From: Clostridiales bacterium
Lineage (GTDB): Bacteria; Bacillota; Clostridia; Lachnospirales; JAISYE01
Length of the DNA stretch: 36,104 bases
Direction: 5' to 3'
Assembly: GCA_031297485.1 (NCBI GenBank)
Contig: JAISYE010000100.1
Coordinates: 1 to 36,104, forward strand
Made by a program: the position numbers and the translations under genes. Under the pieces are notes generated by a model, which ran no database searches, was not told the DNA's origin, and saw nothing but the letters and a program-made list of their open reading frames with translations. This document shows, in pieces, positions 8,260-36,104 of this stretch (position 1 is the first letter of the stretch; every line of letters starts with the position of its first letter).

Positions 8260-8498
8260 AGTATTCCCTCCTAAGGAAATGTGAAAGGTCAAAAAATTAA
8301 GACCTTGGGGCTCTGCCCCAAACCCCGCTGGGGATTTCATCCCCAGACCCCTTCTTAAGGGCGACGGGTGTAGCGCTTTTGATACAGGTACATCCTTCGG
8401 AAATGCGTTGAAGCGTTCGCATTTTCGTCGAGCAAGCCCGACTACCCCCTGTGAAGGAGTTTGGCGTTTAATTATCCTCATTCCTATATTCGTGGTTT
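8260..8498. other. Upstream region of the glycyl radical enzyme gene
   Basis: Contains a GC-rich block (about 8305-8352) with GGGGCTCTGCCCC and CTGGGGATTTCATCCCCAG hairpins of the kind that are scattered in many Firmicute chromosomes, and a copy of the hairpin motif on the minus strand (8427-8442, GTCGAGCAAGCCCGAC). The minus-strand frame of the enzyme stays open through this region, but without a start supported by a binding site. I see no clear promoter. Confidence 0.5.
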
Positions 8499-8600
8499 AG
8501 AGCATATCCCTTAATAAACAAGAATACCGATTTTGCGCCATTTTTGCGTTTCAACAAATCCAATATTTAAACCATTCTGTTTTATTCAGGGATAAGCCCT
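8499..8600 (-). repeat. Small inverted-repeat element, family 1, copy A
   Basis: On the minus strand this reads GGGCTTATCCCTGAATAAAA at the left end and TTATTAAGGGATATGCTCT at the right end. It matches copies B (11735-11836) and C (16681-16780) through most of its length, including ATGG, the AAATAYTGGATTTG block and GCGCAAAATC. Terminal inverted repeats are about 13 bases (AGAGCTTATCCCT type). About 102 bases, no coding capacity, MITE-like. Confidence 0.8.
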
Positions 8601-11612: not shown

Positions 11613-11735
11613 TTAATACTACAGCGTGAGTTCTGAGAACAACAACGCAGAAATCAGGGATTTCTCGCCGCCGCAATAAATGCGGCAGACCAACAATAAA
11701 GCCCATTTCTGCAAAATTTCACGCTGTAGTGTTAA
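11613..11735. repeat. Small inverted-repeat element, family 3, flanked by TTAA
   Basis: The 18-base ends are TTAATACTACAGCGTGAG on the left and, on the opposite strand from 11735, TTAACACTACAGCGTGAA. They match at 16 of 18 positions. Both ends carry TTAA, which may be a duplicated target or part of the repeat. The interior (87 bases) has hairpins GAAATCAGGGATTTC and GCCGC-AATAAA-TGCGGC but no reading frame. The right end directly touches family 1 copy B. MITE-like. Confidence 0.72.
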
Positions 11736-11836
11736 GAGCTTATCCCTGAATAAAACAGAATGGCGTAAATACTGGATTTGTTAAAATGCAGGAATGGCGT
11801 AAAATCAGCAGTCTGCCTATTAAGGGATAAAGCTCT
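11735..11836 (+). repeat. Small inverted-repeat element, family 1, copy B
   Basis: Runs from AGAGCTTATCCCTGAATAAA to CTATTAAGGGATAAAGCTCT, the two ends being inverted repeats with one extra base. The interior is nearly the same as copy C and close to copy A. It begins at the last base of the family 3 element, so the two inserted side by side or one within the other's end. Confidence 0.82.
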
Positions 11837-16625: not shown

Positions 16626-16680
16626 AACTTATTCTTTAATGGCGCTATTCTTAATGGACCGGAACCCGTTATAACTTAAA

Positions 16681-16780
16681 GGCTTATCCCTGAATAAAGC
16701 GGAATGGCTTAAATACTGGATTTGCTAAAATGCAGAAATGACGCAAAATCAGCATTCTTGCCTATTAAGGGATAGGCTCT
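16681..16780 (+). repeat. Small inverted-repeat element, family 1, copy C
   Basis: Runs from GGCTTATCCCTGAATAAAGC to CCTATTAAGGGATAGGCTCT. It is very close to copy B. Its last two bases are part of the minus-strand stop codon of the gene that ends at 16779, so the element supplies that gene's stop. Confidence 0.82.
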
Positions 16781-23609: not shown

Positions 23610-24357
23610 ATTCATATTCCTTAAGCAGTTCGTCCGTAGCCGCGCAGGCAAAATCACATCTGAACAGCTTGTCGTTTTCATGGGCTTTCAGCGAAATCGC
23701 ACCTTCTGCGGCTTTGACGATAGCGGCGGCGGCGGCGACATCCCAAAGTCTAATGCTCATTTCGCTGTACAAATCAACGCGTCCGCAAGACACAAATGTT
23801 CCCATTATGGCTGCGGTTCCAAGCATACGTACTTTTTTAACGCGCTTAACACGATTGATAAAATATATTAAGTTATCATTTGATAGTTCAAAAGCATTTG
23901 GAAATCCTGTTGCCATTACCGCATTATTCAGTTTCGTAACTCCTGAAGTCTGAATTTGCTTTCCGTTTAAGGTAGCACCGTTACCTACGACTCCGACGAA
24001 TAGTTCTTCCGCAACAAAACGATTAACAACGCCGATGAGAGGTTCATTGTTCTTATATAACGCAATGGACACACACGAAAGCTCCCCCAAATCTTTGAAA
24101 TAGTTTACGGTTCCGTCAAGAGGGTCAATTATCCATTTCAGTTCACTTTCGTTACCTACAATGCCGCTTTCTTCGGTCAAAACGAATAATCCGGAAGGGA
24201 ACAATTCATCCAAAATGATTTTTTCTGCCGCTTTATCGGTTGAAAGTTTAATGTCGTGCATCAAGTCCTCATCAACACGAATATCTCTGCGCTGTTTAAG
24301 GTATTCACCCGCTTTTTGTGCGGCAGAAACCGCGAGTTTCAAATAATCATTATTCAT
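23602..24357 (-). CDS. Inositol monophosphatase-family phosphatase
   Basis: A 251-residue Mg-dependent phosphatase. The metal ligands are visible in LTEESG (60-65, Glu62 and Glu63) and IIDPLDGTVNY (76-86, Asp78, Asp81), and in the C-terminal WDVAAAAAIVKAAEG. Family members hydrolyse inositol phosphates, fructose bisphosphate, histidinol phosphate, 3'-phosphoadenosine phosphate or sugar phosphates. In a glycan operon with a GmhA-like isomerase and a CMP-transferase, removal of a phosphate from a sugar intermediate is the best guess. The start overlaps the dehydrogenase stop by 8 bases, and the end overlaps the methyltransferase start by 8 bases. Confidence 0.92.
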   Translation of the reverse strand: MNNDYLKLAVSAAQKAGEYLKQRRDIRVDEDLMHDIKLSTDKAAEKIILDELFPSGLFVLTEESGIVGNESELKWIIDPLDGTVNYFKDLGELSCVSIALYKNNEPLIGVVNRFVAEELFVGVVGNGATLNGKQIQTSGVTKLNNAVMATGFPNAFELSNDNLIYFINRVKRVKKVRMLGTAAIMGTFVSCGRVDLYSEMSIRLWDVAAAAAIVKAAEGAISLKAHENDKLFRCDFACAATDELLKEYEYA

Positions 24358-25240
24358 TCAAATCCCTCAGTAAATTATTAACTGCTTGTATTTCCATTTC
24401 AACGCGGCAAAGTTTTGTTTGCGTCGCTATGTGTGGAGTGAGAATTGCGTTGTCAAGTTCCGCGAGTATGCCCGAATACGGTTCTGCGCTGAATGTGTCT
24501 GCGTAGTAATAACCGAGTTTGCCGGATTTCAGAGCATCATATATTGCACCCTCGTCTACCAGACCACCGCGAGCCGTGTTTAGCAGTACCGCACCATCTT
24601 TGAATAGCGACAACTTCTCCATACCGATTACCTGTTCATTCCCCGCCGCGTGAAGAGATACCGCGTCAGCAAGCGGCAACAACTCATCCAGAGGCGTTCC
24701 GTTTGGCAGAGAGCACGGGTCGTATTTCAAAATTTCCACACCGAATGGTTCAAGTAACCGCTCGAACTCACGCGCGATACGACCGTAACCTATAAGCAAA
24801 ATTTTACTGCTGCGAACGGAAAAGCCCATACGCTTTTTCCAGTTCCCGGCGTGTATATCGGAGTTTGCAAACGGAATTTGCCTTACTATTGCAAGCAATG
24901 CCGCAAGTGTCATCTCGGCAACAGCATACGTTGGAGCATCAGGCGTGTTTGAAACCTTAATATTATGCTTCTCAGCCGCCGCTAAATCAACATTATCGAC
25001 ACCTATGCCGACTCGCGCAATTGCTTTTAGTTCAGAGCAAGCCGAAAAAACTTTTTCGTTAAGAGGTTCAAGACCGGCAAGTAGACCCACACAACCGAGC
25101 AAATGCGCGATGATTTCGTCTTCGGTCAGCTTGCGTTTGTATGGGTTCGGGACGACTTCATAGCCGTCAAGCAACTGCATAACCTCGGCTTGCGGAGGAT
25201 TTGATGTCCCAACTGCGATTTTGCCTAAATATTCTATCAT
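24350..25240 (-). CDS. D-isomer-specific 2-hydroxyacid dehydrogenase
   Basis: A 296-residue NAD-dependent dehydrogenase of the phosphoglycerate dehydrogenase group. It shows ELKAIARVGIGVDNVDLAAA, the NAD-binding ILLIGYGRIAREF, the catalytic Arg in LLNTARGGLVDEGA, the Glu region DTFSAEP and the catalytic His in ILTPHIATQT. Length is that of the catalytic and nucleotide-binding domains without an ACT domain, so it is not likely to be the allosteric SerA. AGGAGA lies 6 bases before the ATG. It follows the TylF-like gene by 9 bases. A 2-oxo or 2-hydroxy acid intermediate, such as an acidic sugar branch or glycerate-type decoration, is likely to be made by this operon. Confidence 0.92.
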   Translation of the reverse strand: MIEYLGKIAVGTSNPPQAEVMQLLDGYEVVPNPYKRKLTEDEIIAHLLGCVGLLAGLEPLNEKVFSACSELKAIARVGIGVDNVDLAAAEKHNIKVSNTPDAPTYAVAEMTLAALLAIVRQIPFANSDIHAGNWKKRMGFSVRSSKILLIGYGRIAREFERLLEPFGVEILKYDPCSLPNGTPLDELLPLADAVSLHAAGNEQVIGMEKLSLFKDGAVLLNTARGGLVDEGAIYDALKSGKLGYYYADTFSAEPYSGILAELDNAILTPHIATQTKLCRVEMEIQAVNNLLRDLNE

Positions 25241-25249
25241 TTATCTCTC

Positions 25250-26122
25250 CTATATTTTTATTATCTGCAATGACAAATTGTCCGATATACACGCTTTCGC
25301 GACAGGCTTCCCAAGCTCATTTTCAAAATCTTTGACCGCTTGTTTAACTCCGGGCAGTTCCGGGTGAAAATAATCGTGCAGAAGAATCACCCCCCCCCCC
25401 ACGATACGGGGATAAAAGAACCGTAACGCGTTTAGTGTGGGCTGATGCAAATCCATATCAAGATTAACGAACATAAACGTATCTTTTACGCCTGAAAAGG
25501 TTTTAGGAACATAGCCTTTTTTTATTATCACATTCTCTTTGTACGGCATATTTTCAAGTACAGATGTTTCATCCGTTGGGAAGCCTCCGGGTTTGTTGAA
25601 ACCGCCATTCAAGAACGCCGACTGATTCAACTCGCGTTCTTTCTGTATATCCTTTTCCGCAAAACCCTCGAACGTATCAAACAAGTAGAGTTTTCTGTTA
25701 GGGAAAAGTTTACTTATATGCCAAGCAAACGCACCCTGATGCACACCACACTCTGCTACTGCACCCTCAATAGATTCATCGCTGATAAACCGGGCATAGT
25801 TGCGGAGGAACTGCGTTCGGGGAGCGTTTTCCTGTATTTTATCAAGCGTATAAACGACGATTTTAGATTCGGGCACACCTAATCCTAGCAGGTTGCACTT
25901 CATCTTCTCCCGCGCCTGAACGAACTTGTTGCAGATTACAATCTTGTCGTATTCTTTTCCCAAGACAACCAAAGGATTATACACGGGTAACTTTTCTCGG
26001 AGATACGTTTTACCCCACATTTCGGAATTGTCGTCAAGATAACCAGTGATGTTCTCCCTCTTCGCAAACTGCTGGTGATAGCGAAAAGAATAGTGAGAAC
26101 AACCATATAGGTAAGTTGTCAT
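25250..26122 (-). CDS. TylF/MycF-type O-methyltransferase with in-frame 11-G tract
   Basis: A 290-residue protein. The N-terminal 100 residues look like a nucleotide-binding module of the type found before FkbM/TylF proteins (TTYLYGCSHYSFRYHQQF, YDKIVICNKF). From about 105 it follows the TylF/macrocin O-methyltransferase pattern: GAVAECGVHQGAFAWHISKL (SAM loop), LYLFDTFEGF, MFVNLDMDLHQPT (metal-site Asp222 and Asp224) and VILLHDYFHPE (His249, Asp250). Between them, residues 242-244 are three glycines encoded by a run of 11 G on the coding strand (25390-25400). In the present state the frame is intact. A one-base change would remove the HDY metal site, so this is a candidate phase switch. GGGAGG lies in front of the ATG, which overlaps the previous stop. 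Confidence 0.87.
   Translation of the reverse strand: MTTYLYGCSHYSFRYHQQFAKRENITGYLDDNSEMWGKTYLREKLPVYNPLVVLGKEYDKIVICNKFVQAREKMKCNLLGLGVPESKIVVYTLDKIQENAPRTQFLRNYARFISDESIEGAVAECGVHQGAFAWHISKLFPNRKLYLFDTFEGFAEKDIQKERELNQSAFLNGGFNKPGGFPTDETSVLENMPYKENVIIKKGYVPKTFSGVKDTFMFVNLDMDLHQPTLNALRFFYPRIVGGGVILLHDYFHPELPGVKQAVKDFENELGKPVAKACISDNLSLQIIKI
25390..25400 (-). repeat. Poly-G tract (11 G) in the TylF-type methyltransferase gene
   Basis: Eleven C on the plus strand, eleven G on the coding strand, covering the third base of a Val codon, three Gly codons and the first base of the next Val codon. This is the longest homopolymer I noticed in the window and sits upstream of the catalytic HDY motif. 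Tracts of this length are known to slip during replication in phase-variable surface genes of Campylobacter and Helicobacter. Confidence 0.9.
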
Positions 26123-26703
26123 TAGTGTTTGCCTCCCATAAATTTATCGAGATACGCGTCAAGTAACGCATGAAGAAGCACAGCGTGAGCAGATTCAACC
26201 AAGCCGTAAGTCGGTAGCGGAACATAAAAGTTCAAATCACCGAATTTCCGCGACTTGTTATCTTCGCCTTTGCCGCTAAGCGTAACAACGAACATACCCT
26301 TTTCGTGAGCTGTGTTAATTGCCTTAATCACATTCGGTGAATTCCCGCTTGATGAAATAGTAATAAGAACATCATTAGGAGTTCCTATTTTACCGATTCT
26401 GTAGGCAAAAACATCATCATAAGAAATATCGTTGCTAATTGCCGTGATATGAGATGTTTCCGAAATAGTGTACGTTTTCATATCGGCGTTTTGAAAACAA
26501 TCATGCGACAAATGCTCCGCCATAGTACAGCTTGCGCCGTTGCCGCAGAAGAAAAACGTGCCGTCTTTTTCTTTGCGGTCGTGGACAAGGTGAATCCATT
26601 GCTCGAACGCTTCGTCAAGTTCCTGCTGCTTGCCGTCAAATGTCGAAATAGTTTTGTTCAGCGCATCCGATGTTGCTTTCGTGTAGTTCGATAGATAGCT
26701 CAT
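26122..26703 (-). CDS. SIS-domain phosphosugar isomerase, GmhA-like (sedoheptulose 7-phosphate isomerase type)
   Basis: A 193-residue single SIS-domain protein. The layout is that of GmhA: an N-terminal helix, TFFFCGNGASCTMAEHLSHD (the phosphate-binding GNGxSxxxAEH block with a Glu near 65), DVLITISSSGNSPNVIKAI, and YGLVESAHAVLLHALLD with a conserved His near 180. GmhA makes D-glycero-D-manno-heptose 7-phosphate from sedoheptulose 7-phosphate. The partner phosphatase and nucleotidyltransferase could be the fused protein at 723-1946. Arabinose-5-phosphate isomerase (KdsD) is less likely because no CBS domains are present. Start ATGA overlap with the cytidylyltransferase gene and stop overlap of one base with the TylF-like gene. 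Confidence 0.87.
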   Translation of the reverse strand: MSYLSNYTKATSDALNKTISTFDGKQQELDEAFEQWIHLVHDRKEKDGTFFFCGNGASCTMAEHLSHDCFQNADMKTYTISETSHITAISNDISYDDVFAYRIGKIGTPNDVLITISSSGNSPNVIKAINTAHEKGMFVVTLSGKGEDNKSRKFGDLNFYVPLPTYGLVESAHAVLLHALLDAYLDKFMGGKH

Positions 26704-27392
26704 AAATTCAAATACCTCTCTTGTTGTTTATTTATTCTTGATAAAAGAATACCCTCTGCAATTCGCCATTCTTCAAGAGTGTCAAGGTCGCATGACTCGT
26801 CTTTCGGTATTGCAAAATAGCCGACCTTGCCGCCGAAAACAGGGTTAACGCCGTTCTCCTGATTTTCAATAAACTTATCGCGCCGCCAAGCGGTTATAGC
26901 CCAAATGACTTCATCAACAGGTTCTAATAACTGACTGTTGATTTTCTCCGCAAAGGTGAAATTCAACGGCTCGCCTTTATAAAAACTTTCAGCCTGAACG
27001 GAAATGGTCGACAGAACCGTATCATAATCGGATATTTCTACAAATTTTACGAAGTTTGCAAGCGTTTCGGCTTTCAAAAGCGGCGACGTAGGATTAACCA
27101 TTATCACATAATCACACGCGTGCTTTTTACAAAATTCATAAGTGAAGTCGCGGTTTGTCGCGGTGTCGGTTGCGAGTTCAGGCGGTCGCTTATGAAATTT
27201 AGCCCCCATAGTTTCAGCAACGCGTCCGAGTTCTTCAGATTCGCTGTTTACCAATATACTTTCAAATAATCCACTGTTCACAGCAAGCTCAATAGGGTAT
27301 TGAATCAGAGGTTTATCTATCATATACCGAATGTTCTTTTTCGATATTCTTTTTGAACCGAGTCGCGCAGGTATCATAGCTATCATTCGCAT
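26700..27392 (-). CDS. Acylneuraminate-type cytidylyltransferase (CMP-sugar synthetase family)
   Basis: A 230-residue nucleotidyltransferase. The N-terminal IPARLGSKRISKKNI (7-21) is the CTP-binding loop typical of NeuA/KdsB-like enzymes, and VIMVNPTSPLLKAETL (about 95-110) and ILVNSESEELGRVAE are also typical. The end (DESCDLDTLEEWRIAEGIL) matches the LDI/DTxxDW block. The family activates 9-carbon or 8-carbon acidic sugars with CMP. No NeuB-type condensing synthase and no NeuC-type epimerase are in the window, so the acid substrate is open; the YhcH-like neighbour is also linked to sialic-acid-type sugars. The ATG has GGGGTG upstream and overlaps the YhcH-like gene by 10 bases. Confidence 0.9.
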   Translation of the reverse strand: MRMIAMIPARLGSKRISKKNIRYMIDKPLIQYPIELAVNSGLFESILVNSESEELGRVAETMGAKFHKRPPELATDTATNRDFTYEFCKKHACDYVIMVNPTSPLLKAETLANFVKFVEISDYDTVLSTISVQAESFYKGEPLNFTFAEKINSQLLEPVDEVIWAITAWRRDKFIENQENGVNPVFGGKVGYFAIPKDESCDLDTLEEWRIAEGILLSRINKQQERYLNL

Positions 27393-33376: not shown

Positions 33377-34052
33377 CAGCAGTCTCCCCTTGTTTCAAGA
33401 ATTCGAGTATCTTCATGTCATCATCGGTCAAGGGTTCCTGTTCGACAGAACGCAATATAATCTGCGAAGTTTTCGGCTTTTTGTAATCAGGCGCGGACAA
33501 TCGAGTATACGGGTACACGCGGTATACGCCGATAACAAATATTTCTTCCGCCGTGATACCCCTTGTGCCGACTATGCGTGAGCCGTTGCGCCCGTAAGGC
33601 TCGTCAAGGCTTGCGCAGAAAAATCGTTTATCGAAGTTGTACAGGCAATAAAACTGCATAAGTTCCTCGGCGTTTTTGCGCGGACAGCGGACGATGGCAT
33701 GGATGTTCTTTGAAAACAGACTTGCACTTTTCTCCACCATTTCGCTGTCAGTCAAAATAATCGCTTTAATGAATTTGTGCTGTTTTAGCATCTGCTCTAA
33801 ATACCGCAAAGCGAAGTAGTTGTCACGGTCATTAACCTCTGGCATAAGAACGACGGCAGTTCTGTTTATGTCGTTCTTATTTTTGTAAAGTTTCTTATAC
33901 TTTTTTAGTGTCGTTCGCCAGTACCACCAACCGTGATACGCTTTTACAAGGTTTTTGCGCAGTTGCTTGCGCACTTCTTTCAAGTGTTTTTCAACTTTGC
34001 GCTTTTCCTCTTTTGAAAGCGGCGGACGCTCATTTTTTTGTTCGTCACTCAT
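33306..34052 (-). CDS. Protein of unknown function in the glycan operon
   Basis: A 248-residue soluble protein. The first 50 residues are highly charged and predicted helical (SKEEKRKVEKHLKEVRKQLR). The middle forms a Rossmann-like alpha/beta segment (RTAVVLMPEVNDRDNYFALR, FIKAIILTDSEMVEKSASLF, IHAIVRCPRKNAEELMQFY), followed by FDKRFFCASLDEPYGRN and a poorly conserved Glu-rich tail. No catalytic motif is recognised. The ATG at 34052 has GGGGGAA upstream and overlaps the nucleotidyltransferase-kinase stop by 8 bases. Its position between activation enzyme and glycosyltransferase suggests a role in glycan assembly, but this is not evidence of function. Confidence 0.6.
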   Translation of the reverse strand: MSDEQKNERPPLSKEEKRKVEKHLKEVRKQLRKNLVKAYHGWWYWRTTLKKYKKLYKNKNDINRTAVVLMPEVNDRDNYFALRYLEQMLKQHKFIKAIILTDSEMVEKSASLFSKNIHAIVRCPRKNAEELMQFYCLYNFDKRFFCASLDEPYGRNGSRIVGTRGITAEEIFVIGVYRVYPYTRLSAPDYKKPKTSQIILRSVEQEPLTDDDMKILEFLKQGETADDEAAKNPPEEPISYTAKIVSGS

Positions 34053-35562
34053 TTTTATTCCCCCACAGTGATTCTTCAAGATAAAACAATCCGTTGTAAA
34101 AAGCCCCGCAAACGCTGTCGTAGTCTTCCCAAGCGTATGTGCTGAGAGATAGCCATATCACGGCGTGAATCAGTTTAATCTCATTACGGTTTACAATCCC
34201 GTCAAGAAGTCTGAAAAACCCGTCCTCAACATCGCGCCAACCGTTTGTTTCAATATCCAGTTTCACGCTGTTTTCACATATTTCAAGCGTAAACTTTTTA
34301 ACATTAAATCTATCATAGTCACCGACAATCGAGTAATAAAGCTTTGCCCAATCATACTGCGGGTCGCCGTAGTTTTCGGTGAAGCCGAAGTACCCGCGCG
34401 GGTCTATAAATACGGGGACGGCATCGTTTCTTAACATCATATTGCAAAACGTGTTATCGCCGTGAATAAACTTGAAGTACGGCACTCTGTACTTTGCAAA
34501 CGCGTTTTCCAGCACGTTGCGATAAAAGTAAATATTATGACACTTACGGTTGTTTACCGTTATATATCCATCATCGGCAAGCGGAACGAGATTGCGGATT
34601 TTATCTATCCTGGCAAACGTCTTATCAACATACGCGTTTTTAATACTGAAATAGTCTGTCGGCGCACTTGATTTGGAGTGTAATTCTTTTATCGTGTCAA
34701 CCAGTTTTCGGAGTATATCAAGACGTTGTTCGCGGGTAAAATCATATTCCCAAATGTTCTTGCCGTTGATTTTTTCCATTATAAACGGCTCAAATGAGTC
34801 TATCCTCGGAATCTGCGTAACGCCAATATCTTGCGCCATTTTATACCAAGCCTTTTCGCGAACGGCAAGTTTACGCCCCTGTTCATCAATGCCCCACTTA
34901 ATCAGCTTTCCGTCATCTGTCTGTTCAATTCTGTTAAATGGTCTGCAACGCGAAGTTTCAAGTTTTTCGTATTCCTCTATCAAACCAAACTCTTTTGTTC
35001 GTATAAGCGGAATTACACCAAATGTCTTTTTTTTACTTTGAAGCCAACGAACAAACTCGCCTTCTTCGGGGACATCAGCAATTTTTGATTTATCCGTGAA
35101 TACGAACAATCCTGCGACCCCGCAAGTATCGGAACATTCTTCGGCGAATATATCATCCTCATATTTCCAACGGCTCGGGAATCCTACAGAAAGCCCAATA
35201 TAATCCGCAGTTTCATTCGGAACGCTGAATTCGTCAGGCAGAACTAAATCACACCATATCAGCATAAACGGCGCGTTTTCAGGCAAATATTCAAGAGCCT
35301 GTCCGACACCTCCGCATGTTCCCGATGCACCGTTCGCGTTTACTGTAATGAACTGCACGTCGGCAAACGCGGCAAGATACTTATCAAGAACATCAAACTT
35401 GTAGTCACCGATTATAATAAATTTCTTAGCTGGAAATTTACGAAATAGATGAAACAGCATCGGCAAGTTATCCACAGGCACAAGCGCTTTGGGCTTATTT
35501 GCCGTTAGGTGCTTCATCCGAGTACCCTTACCGCCCGCCTGAACGATTATGTAGTCAAACAT
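34045..35562 (-). CDS. Nucleotidyltransferase fused to an aminoglycoside phosphotransferase-type kinase
   Basis: A 505-residue bifunctional protein. Residues 1-205 are a sugar-phosphate nucleotidyltransferase: VQAGGKGTRMKHLT (7-20), NKPKALVPV (22-30), WCD (103-105), the likely metal-ligand Asp. Residues 210-500 are a kinase of the APH/choline kinase type: AVREKAWYKMAQ, the Brenner motif FIHGDNTFCNMML with His367, Asp369 and Asn374, and VFIDPRG with the metal Asp387. The combination resembles AmgU-AmgK-like anomeric kinase plus uridylyltransferase pairs or LicC-LicA-like choline activation. The substrate cannot be read from the sequence. This is the first intact gene of the operon in the window. 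AGG and AAGGG are weak in front of the ATG at 35562. Confidence 0.82.
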   Translation of the reverse strand: MFDYIIVQAGGKGTRMKHLTANKPKALVPVDNLPMLFHLFRKFPAKKFIIIGDYKFDVLDKYLAAFADVQFITVNANGASGTCGGVGQALEYLPENAPFMLIWCDLVLPDEFSVPNETADYIGLSVGFPSRWKYEDDIFAEECSDTCGVAGLFVFTDKSKIADVPEEGEFVRWLQSKKKTFGVIPLIRTKEFGLIEEYEKLETSRCRPFNRIEQTDDGKLIKWGIDEQGRKLAVREKAWYKMAQDIGVTQIPRIDSFEPFIMEKINGKNIWEYDFTREQRLDILRKLVDTIKELHSKSSAPTDYFSIKNAYVDKTFARIDKIRNLVPLADDGYITVNNRKCHNIYFYRNVLENAFAKYRVPYFKFIHGDNTFCNMMLRNDAVPVFIDPRGYFGFTENYGDPQYDWAKLYYSIVGDYDRFNVKKFTLEICENSVKLDIETNGWRDVEDGFFRLLDGIVNRNEIKLIHAVIWLSLSTYAWEDYDSVCGAFYNGLFYLEESLWGNKNE

Positions 35563-35589
35563 TTAGCTTAGTCCCTTTCCGCACCAATA

Positions 35590-36104
35590 TCACAGATAAA
35601 ACCTTCTCAACATAGTTTTTGATACGTTCCGTTGATTAACACTCTTAAAACATCTGCCGCATATGAAGTATTTATAATATGTCAAAGCTGCAAAATTTGC
35701 AGGTTCGGGTTCAAATGTGAATATTTTTCCATTAGTCGCTCTTTTAGCGAAATACAAGGCGGTATCGCCAATGTTTCCGCCAATGTCAAATACAACAGCG
35801 CTCTCATGAACTGAAACCTCATCATTGTAGGTGTATCCCTCGACGGTAAAAATTTCTTTCATAGATAATGCAAATCTATCCCTGTTCCAATCTGCCAGTT
35901 ACCAAATGACTTAAACCAAGACAAATAGTCGTTCTTGTTTTCTTCATACTTTTTATTTAACTTAGCCCAATGTTCTGGTGGATGCACACCATACTTTTTC
36001 AAGGCAATACTGTACGGCATAAACATCAGCGCGAATTTCAAACGAACTATTTTGCTGAGTAAATCTCGGGAACGGTCATCACTAAGCAACCCATAAAGAT
36101 AATC
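35590..36104 (-). pseudogene. FkbM-family methyltransferase, frameshifted and cut at the window edge
   Basis: Two frames together give one protein pattern. The first (36104 to 35859) starts outside the window with DYLYGLLSDDRSRDLL and ends ...NWQIGTGIDLHYL at a TGA. The second begins ATG 35862 (ATGA overlap) with EIFTVEGYTYNDEVSVHESA, then the SAM-binding VFDIGGNIGDTALYFAKRA and IFTFEPEPANFAAL of FkbM proteins, and ends early at 35590. FkbM proteins usually carry 100 or more residues after the EPxPxN motif, which are absent here. So the gene seems to have one frame change near 35860 and a lost C terminus. Two separate coupled genes are less likely. The part beyond 36104 cannot be judged. Confidence 0.6.

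Follow-up and report, generated by a model that had tools for sequence, protein, structure and literature searches.

Slippage at G tracts has precedents, with tract lengths measured, in Campylobacter (PMC6321876) and in the pili of Bifidobacterium breve (PMC9187656). Genomes of Campylobacter jejuni carry 18-39 poly-G/C loci each, and 81 putative loci were counted in subsp. doylei 269.97 (PMC6321876, PMC8355987). The Clostridia genome analysed here shares with the C. jejuni phasome its pure G/C mononucleotide tracts, their location both within and between genes, the in-frame on/off logic and a complement of tens of loci. However, while surface-glycan and flagellar genes are the targets in C. 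jejuni, solute-binding lipoproteins and AraC or two-component regulators dominate here, and the host belongs to a Clostridia lineage with both MutS and MutL. Similarly, the sortase-pilus switch of B. breve, with lengths measured in the population, has in common with the present case a Gram-positive-type gut bacterium and an intragenic G11/G12 tract that joins or splits an open reading frame (PMC9187656), but B. breve is an actinobacterium with one or two pilus loci per genome, whereas dozens of loci with many functions are found here in one genome. Phase variation by DNA inversion is known for glycan use in Bacteroides and for pdcB/pdcC and CmrRST in Clostridioides difficile (reviewed in PMC11868660); these systems likewise switch nutrient acquisition or signalling proteins at random, but through site-specific inversion rather than mononucleotide repeat length. 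The text of that review does not mention Firmicutes, Gram-positive or poly-G, and searches of the open-licence literature brought up no account of poly-G phasomes for either Lachnospiraceae or Clostridia. Repeat-driven phase variation has so far come mostly from surface structures in host-adapted pathogens.

The window, which denotes the whole stretch of 36,104 nt analysed here (contig C100 of a 3.53 Mb genome in 299 contigs), contains exactly 11 C on the plus strand at positions 25390-25400, corresponding to 11 G on the coding (minus) strand of a TylF-type (PF05711) methyltransferase gene (25250-26122, minus strand), which is in its full-length state of 290 aa at the present tract length. The tract is read as GTG GGG GGG GGG GTG, encoding Val241-Gly242-Gly243-Gly244-Val245, and stands seven residues ahead of His249-Asp250-Tyr251 (HDY; 25378-25370, minus strand). 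It is the sole G or C run of at least eight in the window, where shuffles gave a mean of 0.76 matches, with four reached in 1/100, and where extrapolation of the run-length decay predicts ~0.0006 runs of at least ten. The 11 pure G lie above the working cut-off of at least seven G/C used by PhasomeIt (PMC6321876). Recomputation of the open reading frame for tract lengths of 8 to 14 showed that the frame is kept at lengths 8, 11 and 14 (289, 290 and 291 aa), with stops at 244 and 245 aa for lengths 10 and 13 and at 258 and 259 aa for lengths 9 and 12. A change of a single unit thus swaps the 290 aa product for one of 244 or 259 aa, and the HDY motif is lost in both off frames, each stop preceding the motif. 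The coordinates, residue numbers and reading frame given for the tract in the preliminary description of this DNA were reproduced by the sequence and this recomputation; the loss of catalysis that it expects from one G lost or gained is probable.

Residues 102-269 of the protein match the TylF / macrocin O-methyltransferase family with a Pfam score of 49.5 bits against a curated cut-off of 23. Methyltransf_24 is matched as well, and ~100 N-terminal residues fall outside the Pfam domain. Its solved relatives by sequence are TylF-type O-methyltransferases, including CalS11 (4gf5), the mycinamicin enzyme MycE (4x7u) and 4cdz/5i10. The likeness consists of the domain match and a motif alignment around LDMDL and GG-x(4)-(H/D)DY, in which the GG pair and DDY of the solved enzymes align with the GGG and HDY of the window. 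The solved members differ in having DDY rather than HDY and in the absence of the additional N-terminal residues, and they act on antibiotic-sugar substrates, which is not implied for the window protein. HD occurs in nearly all homologues from the order, with DDY in one. The designation of HDY as a metal-binding motif therefore stands as a motif of the subfamily on the homologue alignment, with metal binding itself presumed from the family. A single-sequence structure prediction gave a pLDDT of 34 and a model of no use.

Downstream, 9 bp past the methyltransferase stop, lies a gene for a D-isomer 2-hydroxyacid dehydrogenase (24350-25240, minus strand), on which the methyltransferase off state may exert polarity. 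Directly upstream, with a one-base overlap, is a gene for a SIS_2 domain protein of the sugar isomerase type (26122-26703, minus strand), next to a CTP_transf_3 cytidylyltransferase of the CMP-sugar type (26700-27392, minus strand), and the same-strand glycan-type cluster further includes an NTP-transferase/APH-type kinase fusion (34045-35562, minus strand) as well as YhcH-type and glycosyltransferase-like genes. It is from these nucleotide-sugar and glycan-type neighbours that a methylated glycan is suggested as the product. An FkbM-type methyltransferase region at ~35560-36104 (minus strand) appears to be broken by frameshifts without any poly-G tract, and is possibly a decaying gene. A small open reading frame with a K/G-rich tandem repeat (KKLGKKLGKKQGVKLG) occurs at 58-375 on the plus strand, and an Rfam search of the window returned no matches.

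Genome-wide, 89 G or C runs of at least ten were counted. Among 1.05 Mb of the genome, made up of stretches picked around tracts so that tract density there is not the genome average, G/C runs of lengths 4 to 9 number 5093, 889, 104, 7, 1 and 2, and those of lengths 10 to 14 number 27, 35, 9, 2 and 1. The 74 runs of at least ten compare with ~0.018 expected from extrapolation of the decay. Both the gap and the second mode are also present in the first 20 contigs, a set chosen by order and irrespective of tracts. A second length mode was not found for A/T runs in the 1.05 Mb. The tract at 25390-25400 is a member of a separate class of 10-12 G tracts that is spread over the genome, and it is not a product of chance. 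Runs of 22, 32 and 64 and clusters at the ends of contigs C55 and C209 were set aside as sequencing-artefact-like; the poly-G ends of C55, C209, C244 and C299 are plainly artefactual and fit the Illumina artefact of PMC9187656. Clean tracts are found within 125 bp of contig ends in 10/~80 cases versus 1.7 expected, but contig breaks at tracts were dropped as proof of length heterogeneity, since the G-end read artefact (PMC9187656) could cause them.

Judged from these sequence features, the tract is very probably a slipped-strand phase switch and part of a poly-G phasome that extends over the genome with roughly 55-75 loci, by which genes are randomly switched. Replication slippage would add or remove one G at 25390-25400, shifting the frame before HDY and giving a truncated, probably inactive methyltransferase, and a further length change would restore the full-length enzyme. 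Tract lengths would be expected to vary within the population and off states to lose function. Loss of mismatch repair was rejected as a cause of the tracts, as both MutS and MutL are found in the genome; these proteins would lower slippage rates, yet phase variation is compatible with their presence.

The state of each tract gene was called with a home-made model of hexamer coding potential, for which 446 long open reading frames of the genome served as the training set, as the best reading across the tract at its present length, one base less and one base more; this scoring superseded a 150-bp frame-scoring scheme that was too strict. Seventy-nine tracts of at least nine could be distinguished in the sampled DNA, with 25 intragenic and in frame, 12 intragenic but read through only after a change of one base in either direction, 6 close to 3' ends, 30 intergenic, 3 unclear and 3 artefact-like. 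The window tract was binned with the 3' ends because of the short following sequence and a low model score, but is intragenic and in frame by Pfam and homologue evidence. Genes that are out of frame, by the hexamer model and Pfam, include those for a 2472-aa SLH/pectate-lyase-like surface protein (C29), solute-binding proteins (C88, C236), response regulators (C14, C26), AraC-type regulators (C60, C284), an AraC-GH39 fusion (C280) and a methyltransferase (C270). Unique flanks surround 24/25 of the in-frame and 12/12 of the out-of-frame coding tracts, which are thus not copies of one element. Spread by one mobile repeat was accordingly rejected for the coding tracts; it may apply to 12 of the 30 intergenic tracts, which adjoin or sit inside high-copy, modular dispersed repeats and may have another origin. 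Intergenic tracts in unique DNA occur 5-125 bp upstream of starts, for example those of an ABC permease (5 bp; C245), a hybrid kinase (10 bp; C201), an epimerase/UDP-galactopyranose mutase (66 bp; C295), an SBP_bac_5 protein (80 bp; C112) and an SLH protein (88 bp; C90).

Two dispersed repeats were observed in the window. One, of ~100 bases with TATCCCTTAATAGGC/AGGGATAAGC ends, is found at 8511-8600, 11733-11823 and 16677-16768, as well as at L117:10172-10263 and L125:16614-16705; it has a mean column identity of 83% over these five copies, many genome copies and no Rfam match. The second is a high-copy repeat built of modular pieces, found at 8279-8392 of the window and at the end of L115 (C168), with tens of matches in the 1.05 Mb.

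The frame states and positions of the tracts also bear on programmed slippage, whereby RNA polymerase or the ribosome would slip on a tract of fixed length and produce a constant mixture of full-length and truncated protein. Long homopolymers can promote transcriptional slippage, and the occurrence of tract genes in both states is compatible with leaky expression. A programmed site, however, should keep to a single conserved length and a single state, whereas the tracts lie in and out of frame, range from 10 to 13 in length and occupy unrelated sites, and frame slippage has no role at the unique intergenic tracts upstream of starts. This mode of expression is considered improbable.

Thirty genomes of the order contain a homologue of the methyltransferase at E<=1e-20. 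Where the motif could be read, nearly all of these homologues show HD(Y/W/F) together with a Gly pair encoded by mixed codons; most are without a run. Several nevertheless carry runs: an in-frame G12 lies near the N-terminus of the G004 homologue, a contig of G026 starts with G12 at this same homologue site, and in G256 a G10 is situated inside the N-terminal GGG motif and is out of frame, since the start codon and ILIWGGG share a frame that differs from that of GGGQWGRK. Furthermore, the G080 homologue has a G9 at the window's own motif, while the G9 of G310 and the G8 of G385 are placed elsewhere in the gene. Besides the window, three homologues contain runs of at least ten G versus ~0.035 expected by a rough hand estimate from genome tract counts (P ~7e-6). 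On and off states therefore both occur in the gene family, the window and G004 being in frame and G256 out of frame at G10. TylF relatives were sought in named genomes, with none confirmed. Homologues with mixed glycine codons and no run, which had been put forward in advance as counter-evidence to a switch, do make up most of the family, but the idea is not overturned by them, because several homologues carry runs elsewhere in the gene.

The tract could alternatively be a static coincidence, with the conserved Gly-Gly before HDY merely written in GGG codons beside GTG. The conservation of GG at this position in homologues indicates that glycine is tolerated by the protein, and GGG makes up 21% of Gly codons. 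Against this, the Gly codons are mixed in homologues, Gly3 triplets written entirely in GGG are ~11-fold above expectation (18 observed versus 1.7), and codon chance gives no second mode such as that seen genome-wide, where runs of 7-9 are near-absent and those of 10-12 common. Such a coincidence is thus very unlikely, and a switch selected at conserved glycines fits better than chance codons with the repeated, independent tracts in Gly-coding motifs. That Illumina-chemistry poly-G calls were inserted into this metagenome-assembled genome is hardly credible, for although reads turning all-G past a G-tract have been described (PMC9187656) and some contig ends are of this kind, the internal tracts are clean, 10-12 long and bordered by ordinary flanks, often in frame within conserved domains (e.g. 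VGGGVILLHDY), and tracts recur within this gene family in other genomes that were assembled independently. The preliminary description is borne out in part: its phase switch is well supported by the genome-wide 10-12 G class, the in-frame and out-of-frame genes and the homologue tracts, and its glycan component is presumptive.

Of the 392 genomes sampled in the order, 279 lack an exact 10-G run. The count is 29 in this genome, 23 in G136 and 8 in those that follow, so that the present poly-G set is the richest of those sampled. Most of the order thus conforms to the expected rarity of poly-G in Clostridia, whereas this genome does not. The tract loci of G136 are sharply bimodal in length (none at 6-8, 23 at 10 and 5 at 11). 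G136 (L255-L282) belongs to another family of the order and has surface-type targets, with 5/28 tracts at most 21 bp from contig ends. The tract genes of family f5 and G136 include glycosyltransferases, an FkbM methyltransferase, an AlgX-like acetyltransferase, flagellin, LRR and Ig-like surface proteins, a sulfatase, a GHKL kinase and others, and the target list of this genome differs from theirs. The MinD protein of the genome has 73-82% identity to those of uncultured Clostridia, Defluviitaleaceae and Anaerotignum, which is consistent with placement in a Lachnospirales-like order.

By Pfam, the tract genes of this genome encode SBP_bac_1, SBP_bac_8 and SBP_bac_5 lipoproteins, AraC/YesN regulators, AraC-GH39 fusions and YesM-type kinases (C173 in frame; C232 and C296 at the 3' end). 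In the lipoprotein genes, the tract falls mostly within the linker that directly follows the lipobox. Further tract genes encode PRD/AAA, PucR, TetR and LuxR regulators, an HD response regulator, an MFS sugar transporter, an ABC permease and SLH and Ig-like surface proteins, and a few are glycan genes. The genome has 37 HTH_18 and ~49 SBP_bac_1 matches, and with an assumed 3300 genes, intragenic tracts are found in 8/36 HTH_18 genes (Fisher P ~2e-8) and in 8/49 SBP_bac_1 genes (Fisher P ~2e-7). Unusually, ABC solute-binding lipoproteins and AraC/YesMN-type regulators are over-represented among the targets, which are not confined to surface glycans. Several proteins combine an AraC-type DNA-binding domain with a GH39-like domain, in L114 (C160), L095 (C49) and L137 (C280), each copy with a poly-G tract inside the gene or at its edge.

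Random switching would chiefly hit the lipoproteins that bind solutes for ABC sugar/peptide importers, along with AraC/YesN regulators and YesM-type kinases, in addition to surface and glycan genes, and a clonal population could come to hold many combinations of on and off states, by which the phasome may diversify nutrient use and the surface glycan. The chances are about even that this is a free-living or gut member of the Clostridia whose poly-G phasome, equal in size to those of the richest Campylobacter genomes, mainly randomises nutrient uptake and regulation through solute-binding proteins, AraC/YesMN regulators and sugar permeases, resulting in combinatorial metabolic individuality with surface glycan switching a minor part. 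If true, phase variation would be extended to metabolic bet-hedging in the Clostridia, a group central to gut communities, and part of the pseudogenes annotated, and of the differences between strains, in metagenome-assembled genomes of this kind would represent switch states.
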